The notes under the pieces are model-generated. The model searched no databases. It had not been told where the DNA came from and saw only the letters and a program-made list of their open reading frames with translations. Shown here piece by piece: positions 24,521 through 35,392 of a DNA stretch of 64,000 nucleotides. Numbering within the stretch: position 1 is the first letter of the stretch; each line of letters starts with the position of its first letter. The translations under genes were made by a program, and so were the position numbers. The stretch is from Deltaproteobacteria bacterium (GTDB lineage Bacteria > Desulfobacterota > Binatia > UBA9968). The stretch spans positions 1 through 64,000 of the forward strand of contig VGTH01000012.1 of the NCBI GenBank assembly GCA_016874755.1, read 5' to 3'.

Positions 24521-27500
24521 CTAGGGCGCTACCTCGATCGTTAGTATCTGCGTCGTTGCCATCTTGCCACTCACTGCCCAGATGGGCACCTGGTGCAAGC
24601 CAAGCGGCGTGTTGCTGGTTGTATATAAACCAAAAGAAACCTCCTCGCTCATCTTTTTAGGCCCAAGCTTGGCGTGGGAGTCGGCAACCTGCCAGACCGC
24701 CCCGTTCAAGCTATTGTTGGGCGTGACGGTGACCTCGCCGGCGAAGCGGAACCTGCCTTTTACTAGCGCCTTCAGGCTCACCTCCCTGCCGCGCTGCACA
24801 CGGATGGTGTTTTGCGTCAACTCCAATGAAAAGCAAGTGCTCGCGGCGTCAAGCGGATTGGCGCCGCAGCGCTTCTCGTCCTCGTCGGGAAAACCGTCGC
24901 CGTCCTTGTCGGTGGATGAAACCGCTTGGATTGTTGCCGCTTCGATGGTCTGCGCGCAATTATCAACGCCGTTCTCTAACATTGCGTGGTTGTTGACGAG
25001 CAGAATCGTCTCCGCTTCAAGCTGCCCCACCCGCGCCACCACGCTGCGGGTGCCCCGTGCTCCCGGCGCCAAGTCGCCCAAGTGCCAGTAGGCCGAGTTG
25101 TCGCTGGCCGCCACGCCGCGATCGCTGGCGCTCACAAACGTCATCTCCTTGGGTAAAAAGCTGTGCAGCGCCACATCGCGCATGGTGTCGAGCGTGCTGA
25201 GGTTGATGTAGTTGAACGTGTACGTCACCGTAGCGCCGCTAAAAGCAGGCTGCGGGCTGTGCGAGCCTGACAGCGACAACATGGTCGAGCAGCGCGGCTG
25301 GCCAAAATTGGGCTGGGTAAAATTTGGCGCCTGATTGGGCGGCATCAATGGAGTGGTCGGCGCGCGCGGCGTCACCAGCGCCGGTGCGGGAGCTTGGAGC
25401 GGCACGCTACCGGGCGCCATTTCCGCCGGCGCGGCCACGGAAAATCCCGAGCTGCTTGCCGGCGTTGTGTCGGCGCCGACGCTCGCCGACTCTGCGTTGG
25501 TCGTCGCATAATTATTCGGCACGAAACCGCCGCCACCGGTGTAGGCAACCGTGGTGTTGGCTTGCGCCGACGCGCTCTGGCCTTGGCCGTTGCCAATGGT
25601 GGCGATGTTGGCGACCAAAGTGCCGCCGAGAACGGTCGAGCCGAGCTTAACAACCAGGGTCCGAGTTACGCTTGTTCCCGGAGCCAGACTGGCAATCGTC
25701 CAGGTAACGATGCCGTTGGCGAAGACGCCGCCGTCGCTTGCCGAAACAAAGGTCGCGTTGGCGGGAATCGTATCGGTCAAAGTCACGCCTGTGGCGGTCT
25801 GATTGGCCGCGCTCGCGTTGCTAACCGTGAACGTATACGTGACCTCGCCACCCGGCAGCACCGGGTCGGGGCTATCGATCACAGTCAACGCCAGCAACGG
25901 TGAGCTGTTTACCGTGCTCGACTGGCTCGCCGCGGCGCTGTTGCCAATCGTATCTTGCAAGCTTACTTGCGCGTTGAGGATCGTGCCATTGGGCAGAGGC
26001 GAATTCACCTGGACCACCAAGGTGCGCGTGCCGCTGGTGCCGGGCGGCACATCGCCAAGACTCCAAGTCGCAATCCCGCCGACCAGCGCACCGGCATTGC
26101 TCGCGGAAACGAAAGTCGCGTTCGCTGGTAGCGGCACACCGAGCGTCGCCGATGGGGCGGTTTGATTGGCGTTGCCGGCATTGCTGTAGTTCACGGTATA
26201 GGCGAGCTGACCGCCTGCCTGCACCGGGTCGGGACTGTCGGTCATCGACAGCGCGAGAATCGGCGCGCTCTGCACCGTTGTATTCTGGCTGGCATTGATG
26301 CTCGTGCTGGCGTTGTCTTGCAGGGTCGCCTGAGCGGTAAGAATCGTACCGTTGGGCAACGGCGTGTTCACTTGAACCACTAACGTGCGCGTGCCGCTGG
26401 CACCCGGCGCCAGATCGCCGAGCGTCCAGGTCACCAAGCCCGCCGCAAACGCGCCGCCGTTACTCGCCGAGACAAACGTCGTGTCGGCTGGAATCGTGTT
26501 GCGCAGCGTGACTTGCGAAGCGGTTTGATTGGCCGTCGTGGCGTTGCCGTAGGTAAGCGTGTAGGCAATCTCGGCGCCGGGCTGCACCGGATCGGGCGTG
26601 TCATCGATGGCCAGGTTGAAAGCAACGTTCGGCCCATCGTCATCGATGATCGTCGCCGTGACCTGTTGCAGGCCGGCCGCCGTGGCGTTGGAAACTAAGC
26701 CCATTGTGACAGCGATAGTTTCGTTGGGTTCGTCGATCGTATCTGAAATCGCGGCCAAGGTAATACTGCCGCTTAAACTTCCCGCAGGAATGACAATACT
26801 TGTGCTCGACGGCGAGTAATCCACGTTGAAAGTAGCGCTGCCGGAAAACGCCAAACCCACCGTGACTGCTTGACCGGAGATCGCGGACAGAGTCGCCGTC
26901 ACTGTCGCAATACCGCCGGTTTCGGCGATGGAAGTGCCGGCAATCGAAAGACTCACCGTCGGCATGGCATCGTCGTCGACAATGGTCGCCGTCGCTTGCT
27001 GCGTGCCGAGCTCGGTTGCGTTGGTGATCGAGCCGATGCCGACCACAATCGTTTCGTTCGCTTCGTTGAGCGTATCTTGAATCGCGGTAAGTGTGATTCC
27101 GCCCGTGAGACCACCGCCGGGAATAGTTATGACTGCCGACGACGCAGAATAGTCGGTATTGAACGTCGCTGTGCCCGAAAAAGTCAGATTGATCGTTACA
27201 TCCAAGCTCGAGACGGCCGAAAGCGCCGCCGTCACCGTGGCCACGCCGCTGGCTTCGGCCATGCTCGCGTTGGCAATCGACAGCGTCACCGTCGGCATGG
27301 CGTCGTCGTCGATAATGGTCGCAGTCACCTGTTGCGGCGTTAACGTGGTCGCATTGGTAGCCGATATTATATCGACAACAATCGTCTCGCTCGGCTCGTC
27401 GATGGCATCTTGAATCGCAGTTAAAGTGATACTTCCAGTTGTTGCGCCGGCGAGGATGGTGATCACCGAGGCCGAGGCGGTGTAGTCGTTGTTCAATGTC

Positions 27501-28537
27501 GCCGTGCCGGAAAATCCGAAGTTGACCGTCACGTCCTGTCCTGATACCGCTGACAGCGTCGCCGTGATCGTGGCCGCAGCCGCGGCTTCCGCCATGGCTG
27601 CACCGCTAATCGATAGCGTCACCGTCGGCGCCGCGTCGTCATCGGTAATGGTGTAAGTGTGCACGGTGGGCGCGCCCAGCGTTGCATTGACCGGATTGGA
27701 TAGAGTGATTTGAATAGTTTCGTCCAATTCGTCGAGGCTGTCGTTGTTGATGGTGACCGCAATATTTCGTGTCGTTTGACCGGTAGCGAACGTCAGCGTG
27801 CCGCTCGCAAGCGTGTAGTCGGTGCCGCTGCCGGTGGCGGTCCCGCCCGTCACCGCGAAGTCGATAGTCACCGTCGGCTCGGTAGCCACCGACAAAGAAA
27901 CCGGGATGTTCACGGTCGTTACCGATTCGACGCCGCTCGAGCTCACCGCGTTGAAAGCTACTGTGGGAACGGGATAGAGCGAGTATTTTTCGTTCAAGTA
28001 TTGTTCGGTCTGTTGTCGCTCCGCGGCGGACAATGCGCGGTCGTAAACCAGCACCTCGACGATATCGCCGTTAAAAAAAGTATTGTTGTTCCAGCCCCGG
28101 GCGATGTTGCCGGTGGGCTGAGTCTGGGCGATGTTGGCCAACTTGCCGGATTCGCTGTGAACCTGGGCGCCATTGACGAACAAGGTGTCCGTGCCGCTGG
28201 CGCCATCGTGGCGCGACACGGTCATTGAAAATTGGTTGCCGATGTTTGACGGCCGCGTGTAAACCGGCTGATTCCCTACCTGTGTGGTGCCAAACCGATA
28301 GGCGACTTCGTCCTGGAAGGGACCCAGATAAACGGTGCCCCCGCTCGCTGTCTCGTTCCAAAAAATCGCCGTGTTGTTGGCGTTGCTCGGCGCCGCAGGC
28401 GTGTGGTCGACGCTGTTCTTGGAAATCAAGAAAATGGTCATGCCCGACAAGCCGCTCACCGGCAAATTGTAGGCAAGAAAATCGTCGGAACCGTCGAACC
28501 GCAGCACCGGCAGCGTGTTCAGAGTATTGGCGACCAC
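24521..28537 (-). CDS. Giant secreted repeat protein, C-terminal part (LamG-like, Calx-beta, DUF11, TSP3-like)
   Basis: 1,338 residues as read, but it starts inside a domain and is best seen as the continuation of the frame ending at 28519. From the N-terminus: the rest of a LamG/concanavalin-like domain (1 to about 185, with LPVLRFDGSDDF and GDIVEVLVYDRALS), four Calx-beta repeats (about 190-635), three DUF11 repeats with SPDPV...TFVSAS...LGDLAPG (about 636-1000), a Pro-rich linker, a fourth DUF11-like unit, a Ca-binding DKDGDGFPDEDE motif near 1205, and an unassigned C-terminal beta domain. There is no visible LPxTG, PEP-CTERM or autotransporter barrel, so how it is exported or anchored is unclear. 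Likely a Ca-dependent surface or matrix protein. Confidence 0.8.
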   Translation of the reverse strand: MVANTLNTLPVLRFDGSDDFLAYNLPVSGLSGMTIFLISKNSVDHTPAAPSNANNTAIFWNETASGGTVYLGPFQDEVAYRFGTTQVGNQPVYTRPSNIGNQFSMTVSRHDGASGTDTLFVNGAQVHSESGKLANIAQTQPTGNIARGWNNNTFFNGDIVEVLVYDRALSAAERQQTEQYLNEKYSLYPVPTVAFNAVSSSGVESVTTVNIPVSLSVATEPTVTIDFAVTGGTATGSGTDYTLASGTLTFATGQTTRNIAVTINNDSLDELDETIQITLSNPVNATLGAPTVHTYTITDDDAAPTVTLSISGAAMAEAAAAATITATLSAVSGQDVTVNFGFSGTATLNNDYTASASVITILAGATTGSITLTAIQDAIDEPSETIVVDIISATNATTLTPQQVTATIIDDDAMPTVTLSIANASMAEASGVATVTAALSAVSSLDVTINLTFSGTATFNTDYSASSAVITIPGGGLTGGITLTAIQDTLNEANETIVVGIGSITNATELGTQQATATIVDDDAMPTVSLSIAGTSIAETGGIATVTATLSAISGQAVTVGLAFSGSATFNVDYSPSSTSIVIPAGSLSGSITLAAISDTIDEPNETIAVTMGLVSNATAAGLQQVTATIIDDDGPNVAFNLAIDDTPDPVQPGAEIAYTLTYGNATTANQTASQVTLRNTIPADTTFVSASNGGAFAAGLVTWTLGDLAPGASGTRTLVVQVNTPLPNGTILTAQATLQDNASTSINASQNTTVQSAPILALSMTDSPDPVQAGGQLAYTVNYSNAGNANQTAPSATLGVPLPANATFVSASNAGALVGGIATWSLGDVPPGTSGTRTLVVQVNSPLPNGTILNAQVSLQDTIGNSAAASQSSTVNSSPLLALTVIDSPDPVLPGGEVTYTFTVSNASAANQTATGVTLTDTIPANATFVSASDGGVFANGIVTWTIASLAPGTSVTRTLVVKLGSTVLGGTLVANIATIGNGQGQSASAQANTTVAYTGGGGFVPNNYATTNAESASVGADTTPASSSGFSVAAPAEMAPGSVPLQAPAPALVTPRAPTTPLMPPNQAPNFTQPNFGQPRCSTMLSLSGSHSPQPAFSGATVTYTFNYINLSTLDTMRDVALHSFLPKEMTFVSASDRGVAASDNSAYWHLGDLAPGARGTRSVVARVGQLEAETILLVNNHAMLENGVDNCAQTIEAATIQAVSSTDKDGDGFPDEDEKRCGANPLDAASTCFSLELTQNTIRVQRGREVSLKALVKGRFRFAGEVTVTPNNSLNGAVWQVADSHAKLGPKKMSEEVSFGLYTTSNTPLGLHQVPIWAVSGKMATTQILTIEVAP

Positions 28538-31500
28538 ACTGGGGCGGGAACCGCTCGATCCTTGAGACCGTCGCGCCCATTACCGGACTGATCCGCCCAT
28601 TGATCGACCACGCCGCCGTTCAAACTCACACCACGGTCGGCGCGCAACCAGAGCGCCTGGCTTGCCGCCGGGCCCGCGGAGCCCTCGTTGTCGGTGTTTG
28701 TCATCGAGAGATCAGCCGGATCGAGGTTGTGATAGTTGCCATCCGAGCTGCTGGCTGGCCCGATGACGACAGTGTAAGCGATGTGGCCGTCATCGATGAC
28801 GTCATCGACGCCCGTGACGGTGACCGTTTGTGCGGCGTTCCAATTGCTGGCGTCAAACGAGAGACTGGGCACCGAAACCGTGCCCTCGGCGGTGTTGCTC
28901 GATGAGATCGGAATCGTGACCGTCGCGGTCGGCGCTGAGTCAAGCACCACGGTAAACGTCGCCGTGCCTCCCTCTTCCGTCGTCGTTGGCCCGCTGGTGC
29001 GCGTAACCGTGATGCCAGCGGTATCGTCGTCGGCGATGGTTGCAGTCACCTGCTGGGTGCCCGATTCCGTGCCGTTGATGACGGTATCGATATCGACGAC
29101 GATCGTCTCATCCGGTTCATCGATATTGTCTTGAACCGCCGTCAGCGTGATACTCCCTGTCGTGTCGCCAGCTGTAATGGTGATCGCTGTCCCTGAGCGT
29201 GTGTAATCGCTTGTCAGTGTCGCCGTACCCGAGAAAGCCAAGTTGACTGTGACATCCTGCCCAGAAACCGCCGATAGTGTTGCAGTGACCGTTGCGACTC
29301 CAGCTGCTTCGGCCATCGGACTGCCGCTGATGCTCAGTGTCACCGTCGGCGCCGCATCATCGTCGGTGATTGTGGCCGTGACTTGTTGGGTACCAGACTC
29401 CGTACCATTGGTCACAGTGTCGATGTCGACGATGATTGTTTCGTTCGGCTCATCGATAGTGTCTTGAACGGCAGTCAGCGTGATGTTGCCCGTTGTGCTG
29501 CCGGCTGGAATCGTAATTGAAGTGCCAGAGCGAGTGTAGTCCGCAGTCAATGTCGCTGTGCCGGAGAACGTTAAGTTGACGCTCACATCCTGCCCAGAAA
29601 CCGCCGATAGTGTTGCAGTGACCGTCGCCACACCAGCCGCTTCTGCCATCGGACTGCCGCTGATGCTCAGTGTTACCGTCGGCGCCGCATCATCGTCGGT
29701 GATCGTCGCGGTCACCTGCTGAGTACCGGATTCAGTTCCGTTGGTTACAGTATCGATGTCGACAATGATCGTTTCATTGGGCTCGTCGATAGAGTCCTGA
29801 ACGGCAGTCAACGTGATGTTTCCCGTCGTGCTGCCGGCGGGAATTGTGATTGAAGTCCCCGAGCGCGTGTAGTCGGAAGTGAGCGTCGCCGTGCCGGAGA
29901 AAGTCAAATTGACGGTTACGTCCTGTCCAGAGACGGCAGACAGTGTCGCGGTCACGGTGGCCACGCCACCGGCCTCGGCCATTGGCGTACCCGAGATGCT
30001 CAACGTCACTGTCGGCGCCGCATCGTCGTCGGTGATCGTCGCGGTCACCTGCTGCGTGCCCGACTCCGTACCATTGGTCACAGTGTCGATGTCGACGATG
30101 ATCGTTTCATTGGGCTCGTCGATAGAGTCCTGAACGGCAGTCAGCGTGATGTTGCCCGTTGTGCTGCCGGCTGGAATCGTAATTGAAGTGCCAGAGCGAG
30201 TGTAGTCCGCAGTCAATGTCGCTGTGCCGGAGAACGTTAAGTTGACGCTCACATCCTGCCCAGAAACCGCCGATAGTGTTGCAGTGACCGTTGCGACTCC
30301 AGCTGCTTCCGCCATTGGTGTGCCGCTGATGCTCAACGTGACCGTCGGCGCGGCATCGTCGTCGGTGATCGTCGCGGTCACCTGCTGAGTACCGGATTCA
30401 GTTCCGTTGGTTACAGTATCGATGTCGACAATGATCGTCTCGTCCGGTTCGTCGATAGCATCTTGAACCGCAGTTAAGGTAATACTTCCAGTCGTGCTGC
30501 CCGCCGCAATTGTGATCGCCGTTCCCGAGCGCGTGTAGTCGCTGGTCAGCGTTGCCGTGCCCGAAAATGTCAGATTCACCGTCACGGCTTGCGTCGACGT
30601 GTGTGACAGTGTGGCGGTGACCGTGGCCACTCCTCCAGCTTCAGCCATCGGTGTCCCGCTAATGCTGAGGGTCACGGAGGGTGCCGCATCGTCGTCGGTG
30701 ATCGTCACGGTCACCTGCTGGGTACCCGACTCGCTGCCGTTAGTCACCGTCGTGATGTCGACGACGATCGTCTCATTGGGCTCATCAATCGTGTCCTGCG
30801 TCGCCGTCAGTATGATGCTGCCGGTCAGATTCCCCGGAGAAATCGTGATCGACGATGCTGAAGTCGTGTAGTCTGTGTTGGTTGTTGCTGTTCCGGAAAA
30901 CGCCAGATTCACGGTCACCGGTTGACCATAAGCTTGCGACAGAGTTGCCGTAACTGTCGCCGTCCCGCCGGCCTCCGCAATCGAACTGTTGTCGACGCTC
31001 AAAGTGACCGTGGGCGCGGTCGCCGGTGTCAACGCTACGCTCTGGGCGACACCGTCACTATCATTGTGCCCCACAATCGTCGCGCCTTTCGTACCGCTAC
31101 TGCCCGCCGCCGACAAAGCGACATAGTTCATCTCCATGGATTCGCCGCCGGTACCTGTGCTCGATGATCCCTCTCCCCCCTCAGTCATATCCAAAGGAGG
31201 TGACCAGGCGGATCCCGGCGTGCCCGAGGAAGGAACAGCGTACGCCGTGACTAGCATGGTGTTCGCTACGGTAGTCGTCACGCTGGGTGCTGTGACCACA
31301 AACGCCGAGATGTCCCCAGATCCCGCTACCTGTCCGCCAGAAACATTTATCGGCGTCGTCGTATCGACTCCATAAAAGGTCATGATTCCGCCGACTGCGC
31401 CGGTCGGCGCTCCGCTGAAAGTCCAGGTATAGTTTGCCGGCTCGCTGTTACTGGCGACGCGTCGATAGGTTGCAAGATTTTGGGTTATATTGGTGTTGTC

Positions 31501-33051
31501 GGGCTGCAATCGGATCAGAGTCCATCCGGCCGGCTCGGTGATTGCGGATGCGCTTGGTCTTACGGCGACCACGGCGATCATGACGTCGTTCTGCACGGTG
31601 CCGGCGGGAACGTTAAGCGTGAGTGTCGCGACTCCCGTACCCACACTCGCTTGCGTTGCGGAACGAAACCGGATTGTCGGATCGATGACCGTGTAGGTGT
31701 GCACCGTGTTGGCACCGAGCGACGCGTTGGTTGGATTCGCAAGTGTGATCTCAATCGTCTCGCCGCTGTCCGCTACGGTATCGTCGACTACCGTAATCGG
31801 CACATATTTAATGGTCTCTCCCGGGTTGAACGTCAGCGTGCCGCTGTTCAGCGTGAAATCGACGCCGCCAGGTGTGGCGCTTCCACCGGTGCGGGAGTAG
31901 TCCACCGCAACGGTCTGCCCAGACGCTGCTGATAGCGATACCGGTATCGAGACGGACGTGGTCGACTCTGCTCCGCTGGAACTGCTAGCGCCGAAGGATA
32001 CCGTCGGTGCCGCATCGTCATCTGTTATCGTTGCCGTCACTTGTTGGGTGCCCGACTCCGTGCCGTTGGTCACAGAGCTGATATCGACGATGATGGTCTC
32101 GTTCGGCTCGTCGATGCTGTCTTGAACCGCAGTCAGTGTGATATTGCCCGTGGTGCTGCCCGCTGGAATCGTGATCGACGTTCCCGAGCGCGTGTAGTCG
32201 CTGGTCAACGTCGCGGTTCCTGAAAAGGCCAAGTTGACCGTAACGTCCTGACTATGAGTATTGGACAGAGTGGCCGTCACCGTCGCGGTCCCGCCTGCTT
32301 CTGCCAACGGGCTACCGCTAAGAGACAAAGTCACCGTGGGCGGGACGGGTTTGATCGGCACTGCGCCGATGGCGGCTTCAGCTACCCCCGACCACGACAT
32401 GGTCACGCTCGCTGCTCCCGGTTCTGTGCTGCCGCCCCCGTAGGCGGTACCGCCGGAGCCGGCTCGACTCAAATTCCACCGTTGAGTTTGACCGCCGCCG
32501 ACCGAAATCGCGGAATCTTTGGAAACCACAGTATCGAAAACTAGCTCTCCTACCGCCGAACTCACGGTGACACTTCCGCTAGCGCTGGTTGAGCAGGTGC
32601 CCAGGGGTGTAGTCTGATCGACACCGGTGAACGTTGTCACTCCAACTACTTTTCCATGCCCCGAGGCGCCGGAGAAACTCACGACCACGTTCGCGGTAAC
32701 GGCGCCAGGATTTACCAGGCTCCATATCTCCGTGCGGGTGTCGGTGCCAAATGATTGTTCACAAACCTTTGTCAGACCGACTGAGTTATACGTGATGCCG
32801 CTTACGTCTACGCTGCTGCTCTCGACAATAAACGAAACGCCGACTAACATTAGCCGATCTGTTCCTGAAGTCGTATGGGAGATGGTAACGGTATTTGTCG
32901 TCGCGGTACCGCTGGAGACTGCGTCGACGGCAACGGCTCCCGACGCCGGCTTTGTCACGCAAAATACAGCCACAGCAATCAGCAATGCGGTCCAAACAGG
33001 CCATACCCTGCGAAGCTTCGCAATTCTCTGTTGCGTGAATTTGTATTCCAT
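28519..33051 (-). CDS. Giant secreted repeat protein, N-terminal part (Calx-beta array)
   Basis: 1,510 residues. A signal peptide (about 1-38, cleavage near ASG-AVA) is followed by a jelly-roll-like domain (about 40-235) and a Calx-beta repeat (237-347). A diverged Calx-beta, a second jelly-roll-like domain, and an array of six near-identical 111-residue Calx-beta repeats (about 679-1344) come next. Each ends in ITDDDAA, supplying the Asp cluster for Ca2+. The frame ends soon after LWLRADRGV and DQSGNGRDG, the start of a LamG-like domain whose remainder lies in the overlapping -1 frame (24521-28537). No Shine-Dalgarno is evident at 33051. Joined, the protein would be about 2,840 residues. Probable adhesin or biofilm matrix protein. 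Confidence 0.82.
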   Translation of the reverse strand: MEYKFTQQRIAKLRRVWPVWTALLIAVAVFCVTKPASGAVAVDAVSSGTATTNTVTISHTTSGTDRLMLVGVSFIVESSSVDVSGITYNSVGLTKVCEQSFGTDTRTEIWSLVNPGAVTANVVVSFSGASGHGKVVGVTTFTGVDQTTPLGTCSTSASGSVTVSSAVGELVFDTVVSKDSAISVGGGQTQRWNLSRAGSGGTAYGGGSTEPGAASVTMSWSGVAEAAIGAVPIKPVPPTVTLSLSGSPLAEAGGTATVTATLSNTHSQDVTVNLAFSGTATLTSDYTRSGTSITIPAGSTTGNITLTAVQDSIDEPNETIIVDISSVTNGTESGTQQVTATITDDDAAPTVSFGASSSSGAESTTSVSIPVSLSAASGQTVAVDYSRTGGSATPGGVDFTLNSGTLTFNPGETIKYVPITVVDDTVADSGETIEITLANPTNASLGANTVHTYTVIDPTIRFRSATQASVGTGVATLTLNVPAGTVQNDVMIAVVAVRPSASAITEPAGWTLIRLQPDNTNITQNLATYRRVASNSEPANYTWTFSGAPTGAVGGIMTFYGVDTTTPINVSGGQVAGSGDISAFVVTAPSVTTTVANTMLVTAYAVPSSGTPGSAWSPPLDMTEGGEGSSSTGTGGESMEMNYVALSAAGSSGTKGATIVGHNDSDGVAQSVALTPATAPTVTLSVDNSSIAEAGGTATVTATLSQAYGQPVTVNLAFSGTATTNTDYTTSASSITISPGNLTGSIILTATQDTIDEPNETIVVDITTVTNGSESGTQQVTVTITDDDAAPSVTLSISGTPMAEAGGVATVTATLSHTSTQAVTVNLTFSGTATLTSDYTRSGTAITIAAGSTTGSITLTAVQDAIDEPDETIIVDIDTVTNGTESGTQQVTATITDDDAAPTVTLSISGTPMAEAAGVATVTATLSAVSGQDVSVNLTFSGTATLTADYTRSGTSITIPAGSTTGNITLTAVQDSIDEPNETIIVDIDTVTNGTESGTQQVTATITDDDAAPTVTLSISGTPMAEAGGVATVTATLSAVSGQDVTVNLTFSGTATLTSDYTRSGTSITIPAGSTTGNITLTAVQDSIDEPNETIIVDIDTVTNGTESGTQQVTATITDDDAAPTVTLSISGSPMAEAAGVATVTATLSAVSGQDVSVNLTFSGTATLTADYTRSGTSITIPAGSTTGNITLTAVQDTIDEPNETIIVDIDTVTNGTESGTQQVTATITDDDAAPTVTLSISGSPMAEAAGVATVTATLSAVSGQDVTVNLAFSGTATLTSDYTRSGTAITITAGDTTGSITLTAVQDNIDEPDETIVVDIDTVINGTESGTQQVTATIADDDTAGITVTRTSGPTTTEEGGTATFTVVLDSAPTATVTIPISSSNTAEGTVSVPSLSFDASNWNAAQTVTVTGVDDVIDDGHIAYTVVIGPASSSDGNYHNLDPADLSMTNTDNEGSAGPAASQALWLRADRGVSLNGGVVDQWADQSGNGRDGLKDRAVPAPVWSPIL
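29020..31017 (-). repeat. Six tandem 333-bp coding repeats (Calx-beta array)
   Basis: Unit boundaries, marked by the codons for DDDAAPTVT, recur at about 29341, 29674, 30007, 30340 and 30673, exactly 333 bp apart. Units 3 and 5 of the array (around 30127-30290 and 29461-29624) are nearly identical to each other while the unit between them differs at many silent sites. This indicates a 666-bp higher-order duplication or gene conversion. Confidence 0.9.
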
Positions 33052-33412: not shown

Positions 33413-33667
33413 ATGAAAGCTATCGTGCTCGCCATCTTGTTTAGCTTGACTCAAGCCGCACAGCTCAACGCTCAAACCTCTTTCTTTGAAGGCAAGACCA
33501 TCCGCATCGTCGTCGGCCTGCCCGCCGGCGACGCCTACGATCTCTACCCGCGCATGCTCGCCAACTACATGGGCAAATACATTCCCGGCAATCCAACGAT
33601 CATGGTGCAAAACATGCCTGGCGCATCGAGCAATCGGCGGCTTCAGCAGATCATCGACCAGCTTTGA
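33413..33667 (+). pseudogene. Truncated Bug-like SBP (N-terminal copy)
   Basis: 84 codons: a signal peptide (about 1-21) and the first 55 residues of a mature Bug-like SBP. From SFFEGKTIRIVVGLPAGDAY to MVQNMPGASS it matches the full-length copy at 34358 almost residue for residue. After GASS the sequence departs (NRRLQQII) and stops. A good ribosome site (GGAG, 4-5 nt) precedes ATG 33413. About 260 residues are missing, so it cannot bind ligand. It looks like a partial duplication whose end abuts a decayed toxin gene. Confidence 0.8.
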
Positions 33668-33714: not shown

Positions 33715-33970
33715 TTACTGAGATTTCTTCCAGATTCGTAAGAATCGGCTCGGTGTCAGGATGGGGATGTTCTCGTATTGTTTCAGGACTAAAATATCAT
33801 CGTCGCCGGAGACAAGCCATTTCGCCTGCGCCGCAACTACACAGGCGATCACTTTATCATCGTCCGGATCTCACTCTACGACTGGCTCTATTTTGATGAA
33901 GGGACGATCTCAACCAGGCTCAAGAGCGATTCTATGACTTCAGCGACCGTTGTTTGCAGGAACTTCCGCG
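33715..33970 (-). pseudogene. PIN-domain toxin remnant
   Basis: In the minus strand the last 43 codons encode DPDDDKVIACVVAAQAKWLV then SGDDDILVLKQYENIPILTP and a TAA at 33715-33717. This is the C-terminal half of a PIN-fold (PilT N-terminus type) RNase toxin, with acidic residues of the active site. Upstream, VAEVIESLLSLVEIV lies in another frame, and a TGA sits between VVE and DPDD. So there is one frameshift, one in-frame stop, and no N-terminal half. The antitoxin gene lies directly upstream. Confidence 0.7.
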
Positions 33971-34131
33971 ACTCGTTCGGCAATCATCGACGGTTTGAGT
34001 GGACGCACTCGTTTGAGAACAATCATGTCTCCCTCCGTCCATACCGCCAGTTCACTCGATGTCGGGAAGAGCCTGAGCATTTCTTTAGGCAGCTTTATGT
34101 AACCGTTCGATTCTACTCTGATTGCTTTCAT
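33940..34131 (-). CDS. AbrB/MazE-type antitoxin, C-terminally shortened
   Basis: 63 residues: MKAIRVESNGYIKLPKEMLR is the swapped-hairpin AbrB DNA-binding start, followed by SELAVWTEGDMIVLKRV. GGAG with 6-nt spacing precedes ATG 34131. Family members continue for about 15-20 more residues that clamp the toxin; here the frame stops in VPANNGR as the PIN remnant begins. I infer a deletion joining antitoxin and toxin that removed the toxin-binding tail and the toxin's N-terminus. The DNA-binding domain may still be functional as an orphan regulator. Confidence 0.65.
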   Translation of the reverse strand: MKAIRVESNGYIKLPKEMLRLFPTSSELAVWTEGDMIVLKRVRPLKPSMIAERVAEVPANNGR

Positions 34132-34357: not shown

Positions 34358-35392
34358 ATGCTTAAGAAAGTCTTGACGCTGGTGCTTTCACTTTTCCTGG
34401 CTCAAACCGCAGAGCTTGCGGCTCAGCCCCCTTTCTTCGAGGGCAAAACCATTCGCATCGTCGTTGGCCTGCCGGCCGGCGACGCTTACGATCTCTACCC
34501 GCGCATGTTGGCCAACTACATGGGGAAGTACATTCCCGGCAATCCGACGATCATGGTGCAGAACATGCCCGGTGCGTCGAGCATGATCGCCGCGAACTAC
34601 GTCGCCAACGTCGCCAAGCCCGACGGGTTAACGCTCGGCGCGACCCTGCCGTCGCTTTATTTCGATCAGTTGCTCGGGCGCAAGGAAGTGAGATTCGACT
34701 GGCGCAAGTACGGCTGGCTCGGCAGCTTCGAAGCATCGAACAATCTGCTCTACATGCGCACGGACACGCCTTTCAAAACCATTCACGACGTGACTAAAGC
34801 GGCGCTGCCGCCCAAGTGTGGCTCGACGGGCACCGGGTCATCGTCTTATTTTCTGGTGAAATTTCTCAACGAAGCGATCGGCACCAAGTTTGAAATCGTC
34901 ACCGGCTACCAGGGCGGCCAAGAGATCGACCTCGCGGTGGAGAAAAACGAAGTGGTCTGCCGCGGCTTCACCGTGACGACGTTCTTCGCGCGCGAGCCGT
35001 TTCACACCTGGCGCAAGAAAAATTTCGTCCGGGTGCTGTTTCAAACTGGCAAGAAGCGCGATCCGCGCCTGCCCGAGACTCCGACCGTGAACGAGCTGAT
35101 GGACGAGTACAAAACCCCGGAAGCGACCCGCAAGCTCGGTCATTTAGCGATGGCCTCCAGCGAGTTCGGCCGGCCGATCATGGCCACGCCCGGCACGCCG
35201 GCGGATCGTGTCAAGATATTGCGCGATGCCTTCGCGAAGTCTCTGAAAGATCCCGACTTGCTGGCCGAAGCGGCGAAGAAACGGTTGGAGATCGACCCGG
35301 CAAGCGGAGAAGAGCTCGACAATCTCGCCAAGGAAGTGATGTCGGTGAGCAAAGACATCATCGAGCGCTTGCGCCGGCTGTTGGAGAAATAG
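34358..35392 (+). CDS. Bug/TctC-like SBP (full-length)
   Basis: 344 residues with a signal peptide (about 1-23). Mature N-terminus PPFFEGKTIRIVVGLPAGDA and YDLYPRMLANYMGKYIPGNP are followed by MVQNMPGASSMIAANYVANV and KPDGLTLG. It is intact, unlike the partial copy at 33413. Stand-alone gene; no permease or enzyme partner within 1 kb on the same strand. Expected role: periplasmic carboxylate capture. Confidence 0.88.
   Translation: MLKKVLTLVLSLFLAQTAELAAQPPFFEGKTIRIVVGLPAGDAYDLYPRMLANYMGKYIPGNPTIMVQNMPGASSMIAANYVANVAKPDGLTLGATLPSLYFDQLLGRKEVRFDWRKYGWLGSFEASNNLLYMRTDTPFKTIHDVTKAALPPKCGSTGTGSSSYFLVKFLNEAIGTKFEIVTGYQGGQEIDLAVEKNEVVCRGFTVTTFFAREPFHTWRKKNFVRVLFQTGKKRDPRLPETPTVNELMDEYKTPEATRKLGHLAMASSEFGRPIMATPGTPADRVKILRDAFAKSLKDPDLLAEAAKKRLEIDPASGEELDNLAKEVMSVSKDIIERLRRLLEK

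Follow-up and report, generated by a model that had tools for sequence, protein, structure and literature searches.

Two adjacent reading frames assigned to one giant Calx-beta/DUF11 repeat-protein gene, apparently split by a net one-base indel within a LamG-like domain

Comparison with relatives indicates that two adjacent open reading frames on the minus strand (28519..33051 and 24521..28537) are one gene carrying a net one-base indel, because a LamG-like domain that is split over two frames here is found in a single frame in those relatives. We place a rough probability of 0.52 on the reading that a single gene, about 2,840 codons long, was broken by this indel and that the change is most likely a real, recent loss-of-frame mutation. 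The window, meaning the whole stretch of DNA that was analyzed, comprises 64,000 nt.

The upstream half (28519..33051, minus strand) starts at an ATG at 33051 and encodes 1,510 aa. The downstream half occupies a 1,351-codon open frame (24521..28576, minus strand) whose first start, a GTG at 28537, would give a product of 1,338 aa. The two ORFs are offset by -1. An in-frame TAA at 28577-28579 bounds the downstream open frame, which opens at 28576 and reads RPSVVANTLNTLPVLRFDGSDDF from there. This TAA and the stop of the upstream frame at 28519 confine the frame switch to 28519..28576, a stretch of 58 nt between the limiting stops in which both frames are open. GC3 was followed in 300-nt steps; frame 1 was highest in 13 of 15 steps from 33051 to 28851, with ties at 0.60 in two steps of the upstream half (32751 and 29751), and from 28551 on, the -1 frame was highest in 13 of 14, the lone exception (24651) extending beyond the end of the gene. 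The change-point in codon usage is spread widely, the best positions being 28569 or 28560 with 28539 nearly as good, and thus supports a switch of frame without locating the break. Alignment of homologues puts the break at the boundary of GRDG and SQGS, near 28567. A preliminary description of this DNA had proposed a one-base frameshift, which the ORF offset, the stops, and the GC3 switch between frames bear out. Its 19-nt overlap was confirmed from the ORF coordinates, and its break zone of 28561-28572 contains the homologue-based position. The upstream frame, described as ending shortly after DQSGNGRDG, runs for 15 more codons to its stop; the proposed single frame of about 2,840 codons fits in size, and both sides are otherwise open, as had been stated.

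The domain that spans the junction was recognized from both sides. The upstream frame closes with a LamG-like block running from LWLRADRG to QWADQSGNGRDG (28567..28653, minus strand, ending in NGRDG), for which the profile search listed no Laminin_G_3 match, and the remainder of the domain lies in the downstream frame (27970..28567, minus strand). There, Laminin_G_3 (PF13385) matched at 28019-28378 (minus strand; profile positions 33-149 of 151) with a whole-protein E of 5.8e-11 and 43.2 bits against a cut-off of 27.6. Calx-beta (PF03160) and DUF11 (PF01345) profile matches above cut-off occur elsewhere in the gene: the genome profile search listed eight Calx-beta domains in the upstream half (29023..32307, minus strand) and four in the downstream half (26636..27967, minus strand), and the best of four DUF11 stretches in the downstream half is at 25583..25888 (minus strand). 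The downstream half also has a TSP3-like motif below the Pfam cut-off, and the N terminus of the upstream half resembles a signal peptide as judged by eye. The Calx-beta tandem units measure 333 nt and flank the break on both sides but are absent from the break itself. The gene product is probably a secreted protein built of repeats. ARAGORN also called a tRNA-Arg (acg) at 31526-31609 (plus strand), within the Calx-beta frame; it is missing from the Rfam matches at gathering score, so the call is probably false.

Relatives of the LamG-like domain were taken from nine loci on eight contigs of named genomes, together with the matches from the phylum. The tail of the upstream frame matched the starts of the relatives' domains (E down to 5e-9 among the matches listed), and the start of the downstream frame matched the continuation of those same domains (E down to 3e-19 among the matches listed). 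When the two fragments from the window were placed in a multiple alignment as rows of their own, they abutted on seven relative domains, with just two columns between them, both filled by L022 alone. The frames of the two blocks were compared by searching each block in all frames and accepting an upstream block if it matched at E 0.01 on the same strand, no more than 400 nt away. This gave 26 downstream-block matches on 13 loci, 11 of which had an upstream block nearby; the other 15 had none at E 0.01 and are uninformative on the junction. Both blocks shared one frame in all 11 relative domains and differed in none, the 11 representing 8 distinct domains since L025 repeats three domains of L021 (same contig). 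The abutting fragments and the single-frame relatives uphold the proposal of one gene broken inside a LamG-like domain. Relatives in which the halves are separate genes, named in the preliminary description as the case against its reading, were seen in 0 of the 11 usable domains (8 distinct). Structure prediction of one intact relative LamG-like domain (alignment A2) returned a mean pLDDT of 41.6, too low for use.

The LamG-like region had no match in the four other genomes of the genus, and its own genome was the only one with a match among the 25 of the family (which include the genus's five) and among the 35 of the order; judged from this distribution, the giant repeat-protein gene looks accessory. 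Five of 395 genomes in a phylum sample matched the region, its own included; L029 did so with E 1.1e-10 and 26% identity, and the three others with E 6e-5 to 7e-4. The matches in G002 are to Calx-beta only and stop short of the junction. No second match to the LamG-like region was found in the same genome, and plasmids (DNA and protein) and phages (protein) gave none; a PDB sequence search returned 37 matches, the best with E 0.12, which were taken as chance. A second Calx-beta protein is encoded in the same genome (C10:62157-63587, within a 1,224-codon open frame). Among the neighbors of the giant gene, the kinase has a best match in the genus that is 63% identical, and the HAD-type gene has matches 59-65% identical in three of the four other genus genomes.

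The strongest competitor of a real mutation is a consensus or assembly error, whereby the organism has an intact gene and the break is present only in the draft sequence; we regard this as a substantial possibility, somewhat short of an even chance. The draft comprises 101 contigs, each half is open and shows codon bias apart from the break, and the gene contains near-identical repeats, among them an exact repeat of 161 nt. Indel errors that fragment genes are a known artifact of long-read assembly according to the available text of PMC12007338. As described there, such errors are mostly linked to homopolymers, and those outside homopolymers comprise a small share of deletions, as well as insertions after C-runs followed by A. 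The 58-nt interval contains one C-run followed by A, near 28544-28541, but this is not where the homologues put the break, and no homopolymer longer than 4 occurs at the break. The sequence at the break is also unique and lies outside the Calx-beta repeats, with each 15-mer of 28500-28600 occurring once in the window.

The general quality of the draft was gauged from other genes. A CoA_transf_3 profile search of the genome gave 29 rows, of which 27 are full-length copies (at least 350 of 366 profile positions) in 23 unbroken open frames; the other two rows are pieces of one short remnant (C8:134099-134368) and lie in the same frame. No frame-split copy was thus found among the 27 domain copies and one remnant, and by our own arithmetic, with error breaking one gene in five, the chance of 23 intact frames would be about 0.006, in a control that strongly tests only about 30 kb. 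All 65 TctC matches in the genome lie in stop-free open frames of at least 333 aa, a control composed mostly of weak matches, in which split genes could be missed and the window's own partial tctC copy is unlisted. Of 40 other window ORFs selected for scanning, 38 have a Pfam match with an E of 0.001 or lower (some below cut-off), and none was seen by eye to be split or to continue the profile of a neighbor. The unbroken CoA_transf_3 frames indicate that the draft is not generally indel-ridden. A single slip would nonetheless fit this one site as well as a real lesion does. The same searches recorded two features of the genome itself: its 5.56 Mb hold the 65 TctC-type receptor matches (on C12 and elsewhere), 10 of them clustered at C6:79711-90749, and four open frames of 790-811 aa (on C4, C6, C8, and C28) each contain two full CoA_transf_3 copies in tandem.

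Gene debris is located just beyond the 5' end of the giant gene. A partial tctC-like copy (33413-33667, plus strand), an 84-aa frame, repeats the opening part of the TctC gene at 34358-35392 before breaking off abruptly. An ungapped comparison of the two, flanks included, found 189 of 280 nt identical, and the copy has no Pfam match of its own. It is followed by a PIN-domain remnant (33718-33870, minus strand) that retains only the end of the PIN_3 profile, positions 91-113 of 115, in a match below cut-off (E 9e-5). This debris at 33.4-33.9 kb makes a real lesion in the giant gene plausible and adds a little to that side. Further along is a shortened ORF (33943-34128, minus strand) with no Pfam match, which we take to be antitoxin-like. 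Its relatives, 76-82% identical over 53-55 residues, occur in four (G002, G004, G007, and G009) of the order's 34 other genomes; the tails of three of these four were read and differ from the tail of the window ORF. A second frame break in this ORF was considered and dropped, given the different tail of the intact relatives.

In our judgement, a single error is possible and a real lesion slightly more likely; we infer a real, recent, and inactivating lesion. If real, it must be recent, since both halves are otherwise open. Translation would then stop 15 codons past the break, leaving a 1,510-aa stump whose LamG-like domain is incomplete, and the C-terminal half would not be produced as a secreted protein. 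The site looks like an ordinary broken gene or sequencing slip, with no special mechanism. As a real lesion, it would represent one more decayed accessory repeat-protein gene; as an error, it amounts to a quality note on this draft. For annotation, both ORFs are best entered as a single frameshifted gene, since the second "protein" would begin in the middle of a domain.

Four further explanations would assign the break a function or remove it, and none fares well. It is very unlikely that the break is real, has become fixed in a living population, and leaves either the stump or small amounts of recoded full-length fiber functional, with the length of a giant surface fiber tuned without a recognized slippery site. 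Phase variation, in which a base is reversibly gained or lost to switch a protein on and off, often targets surface proteins, and the break had been called phase-variation-like. That label was not supported: across the 81 nt surrounding the break, homopolymers reach 4 at most and no unit of 2-6 nt exceeds two copies, and the only tandem array in 28400-28700, a weak one at 28483-28501, falls beyond the interval. Adding or losing a Calx-beta unit would preserve the frame, 333 being a multiple of three, and we give phase variation almost no credence. Short overlaps are common between neighboring bacterial genes, so an overlap of merely 19 nt would not be unusual for two separate genes, the second starting from the GTG at 28537. 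That arrangement is nevertheless highly improbable, as the ORF boundary cuts one domain, both blocks occupy one frame in all 11 relative domains, the downstream-frame codons ahead of the GTG align with relatives (SQGSSGSRPS), and the second half has no signal-like N terminus by eye. None of 11 starts in the downstream frame (28537-28141) has a Shine-Dalgarno-like motif (AGGA, GGAG, GAGG, or AAGG within 22 nt upstream), a weak mark here because the upstream half's own ATG at 33051 also lacks one. Production of the full-length protein by programmed -1 ribosomal frameshifting or transcriptional slippage would suit the -1 direction of the shift and the 58 nt over which both frames are open, but it is extremely improbable: within the overlap the upstream frame contains no X XXY YYZ heptamer, no homopolymer is longer than 4, and the LamG-like domain is single-framed in relatives; the lack of a slippery heptamer, long run, or repeat makes both programmed frameshifting and repeat-based phase variation unlikely.

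The preferred reading of one gene broken by an indel has familiar counterparts. Frameshifted pseudogenes and gene-fragmenting indel errors, as presented in the available text of PMC12007338, involve a small indel that splits a gene, and the same is seen here; the errors of that study are mostly homopolymer-linked, whereas the window site has no run above 4. The intact protein would resemble the fibrillar adhesins of PMC9210967, which have a stalk of repeated domains with DUF11 among the stalk domains in the portion of that paper available. A stalk of repeated domains was likewise found here, in the profile matches and the 333-nt units, and the window protein also bears Calx-beta; the word Calx has 0 mentions in the text of PMC9210967. 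By this likeness, the protein may act as a surface fiber or adhesin, and the LamG-like domain is a candidate for its adhesive domain. Among the relatives, L029, from the same phylum, combines DUF11 with a LamG match in one 487-aa open frame, where the LamG match scores 24.4 bits against a cut-off of 27.6 and so falls short of it. L021, a Cyclobacteriaceae MAG (JANQST010000235.1), shares the combination of LamG-like and Calx-beta domains with the window gene; one of its open frames, of 3,583 aa, carries 12 Calx-beta and three Laminin_G_3 stretches. The identity of the downstream block to L021 and L029 is only about 24-29% (tblastn, among the matches listed), and both keep the LamG-like domain in one frame, unlike the window gene, in which it is divided.
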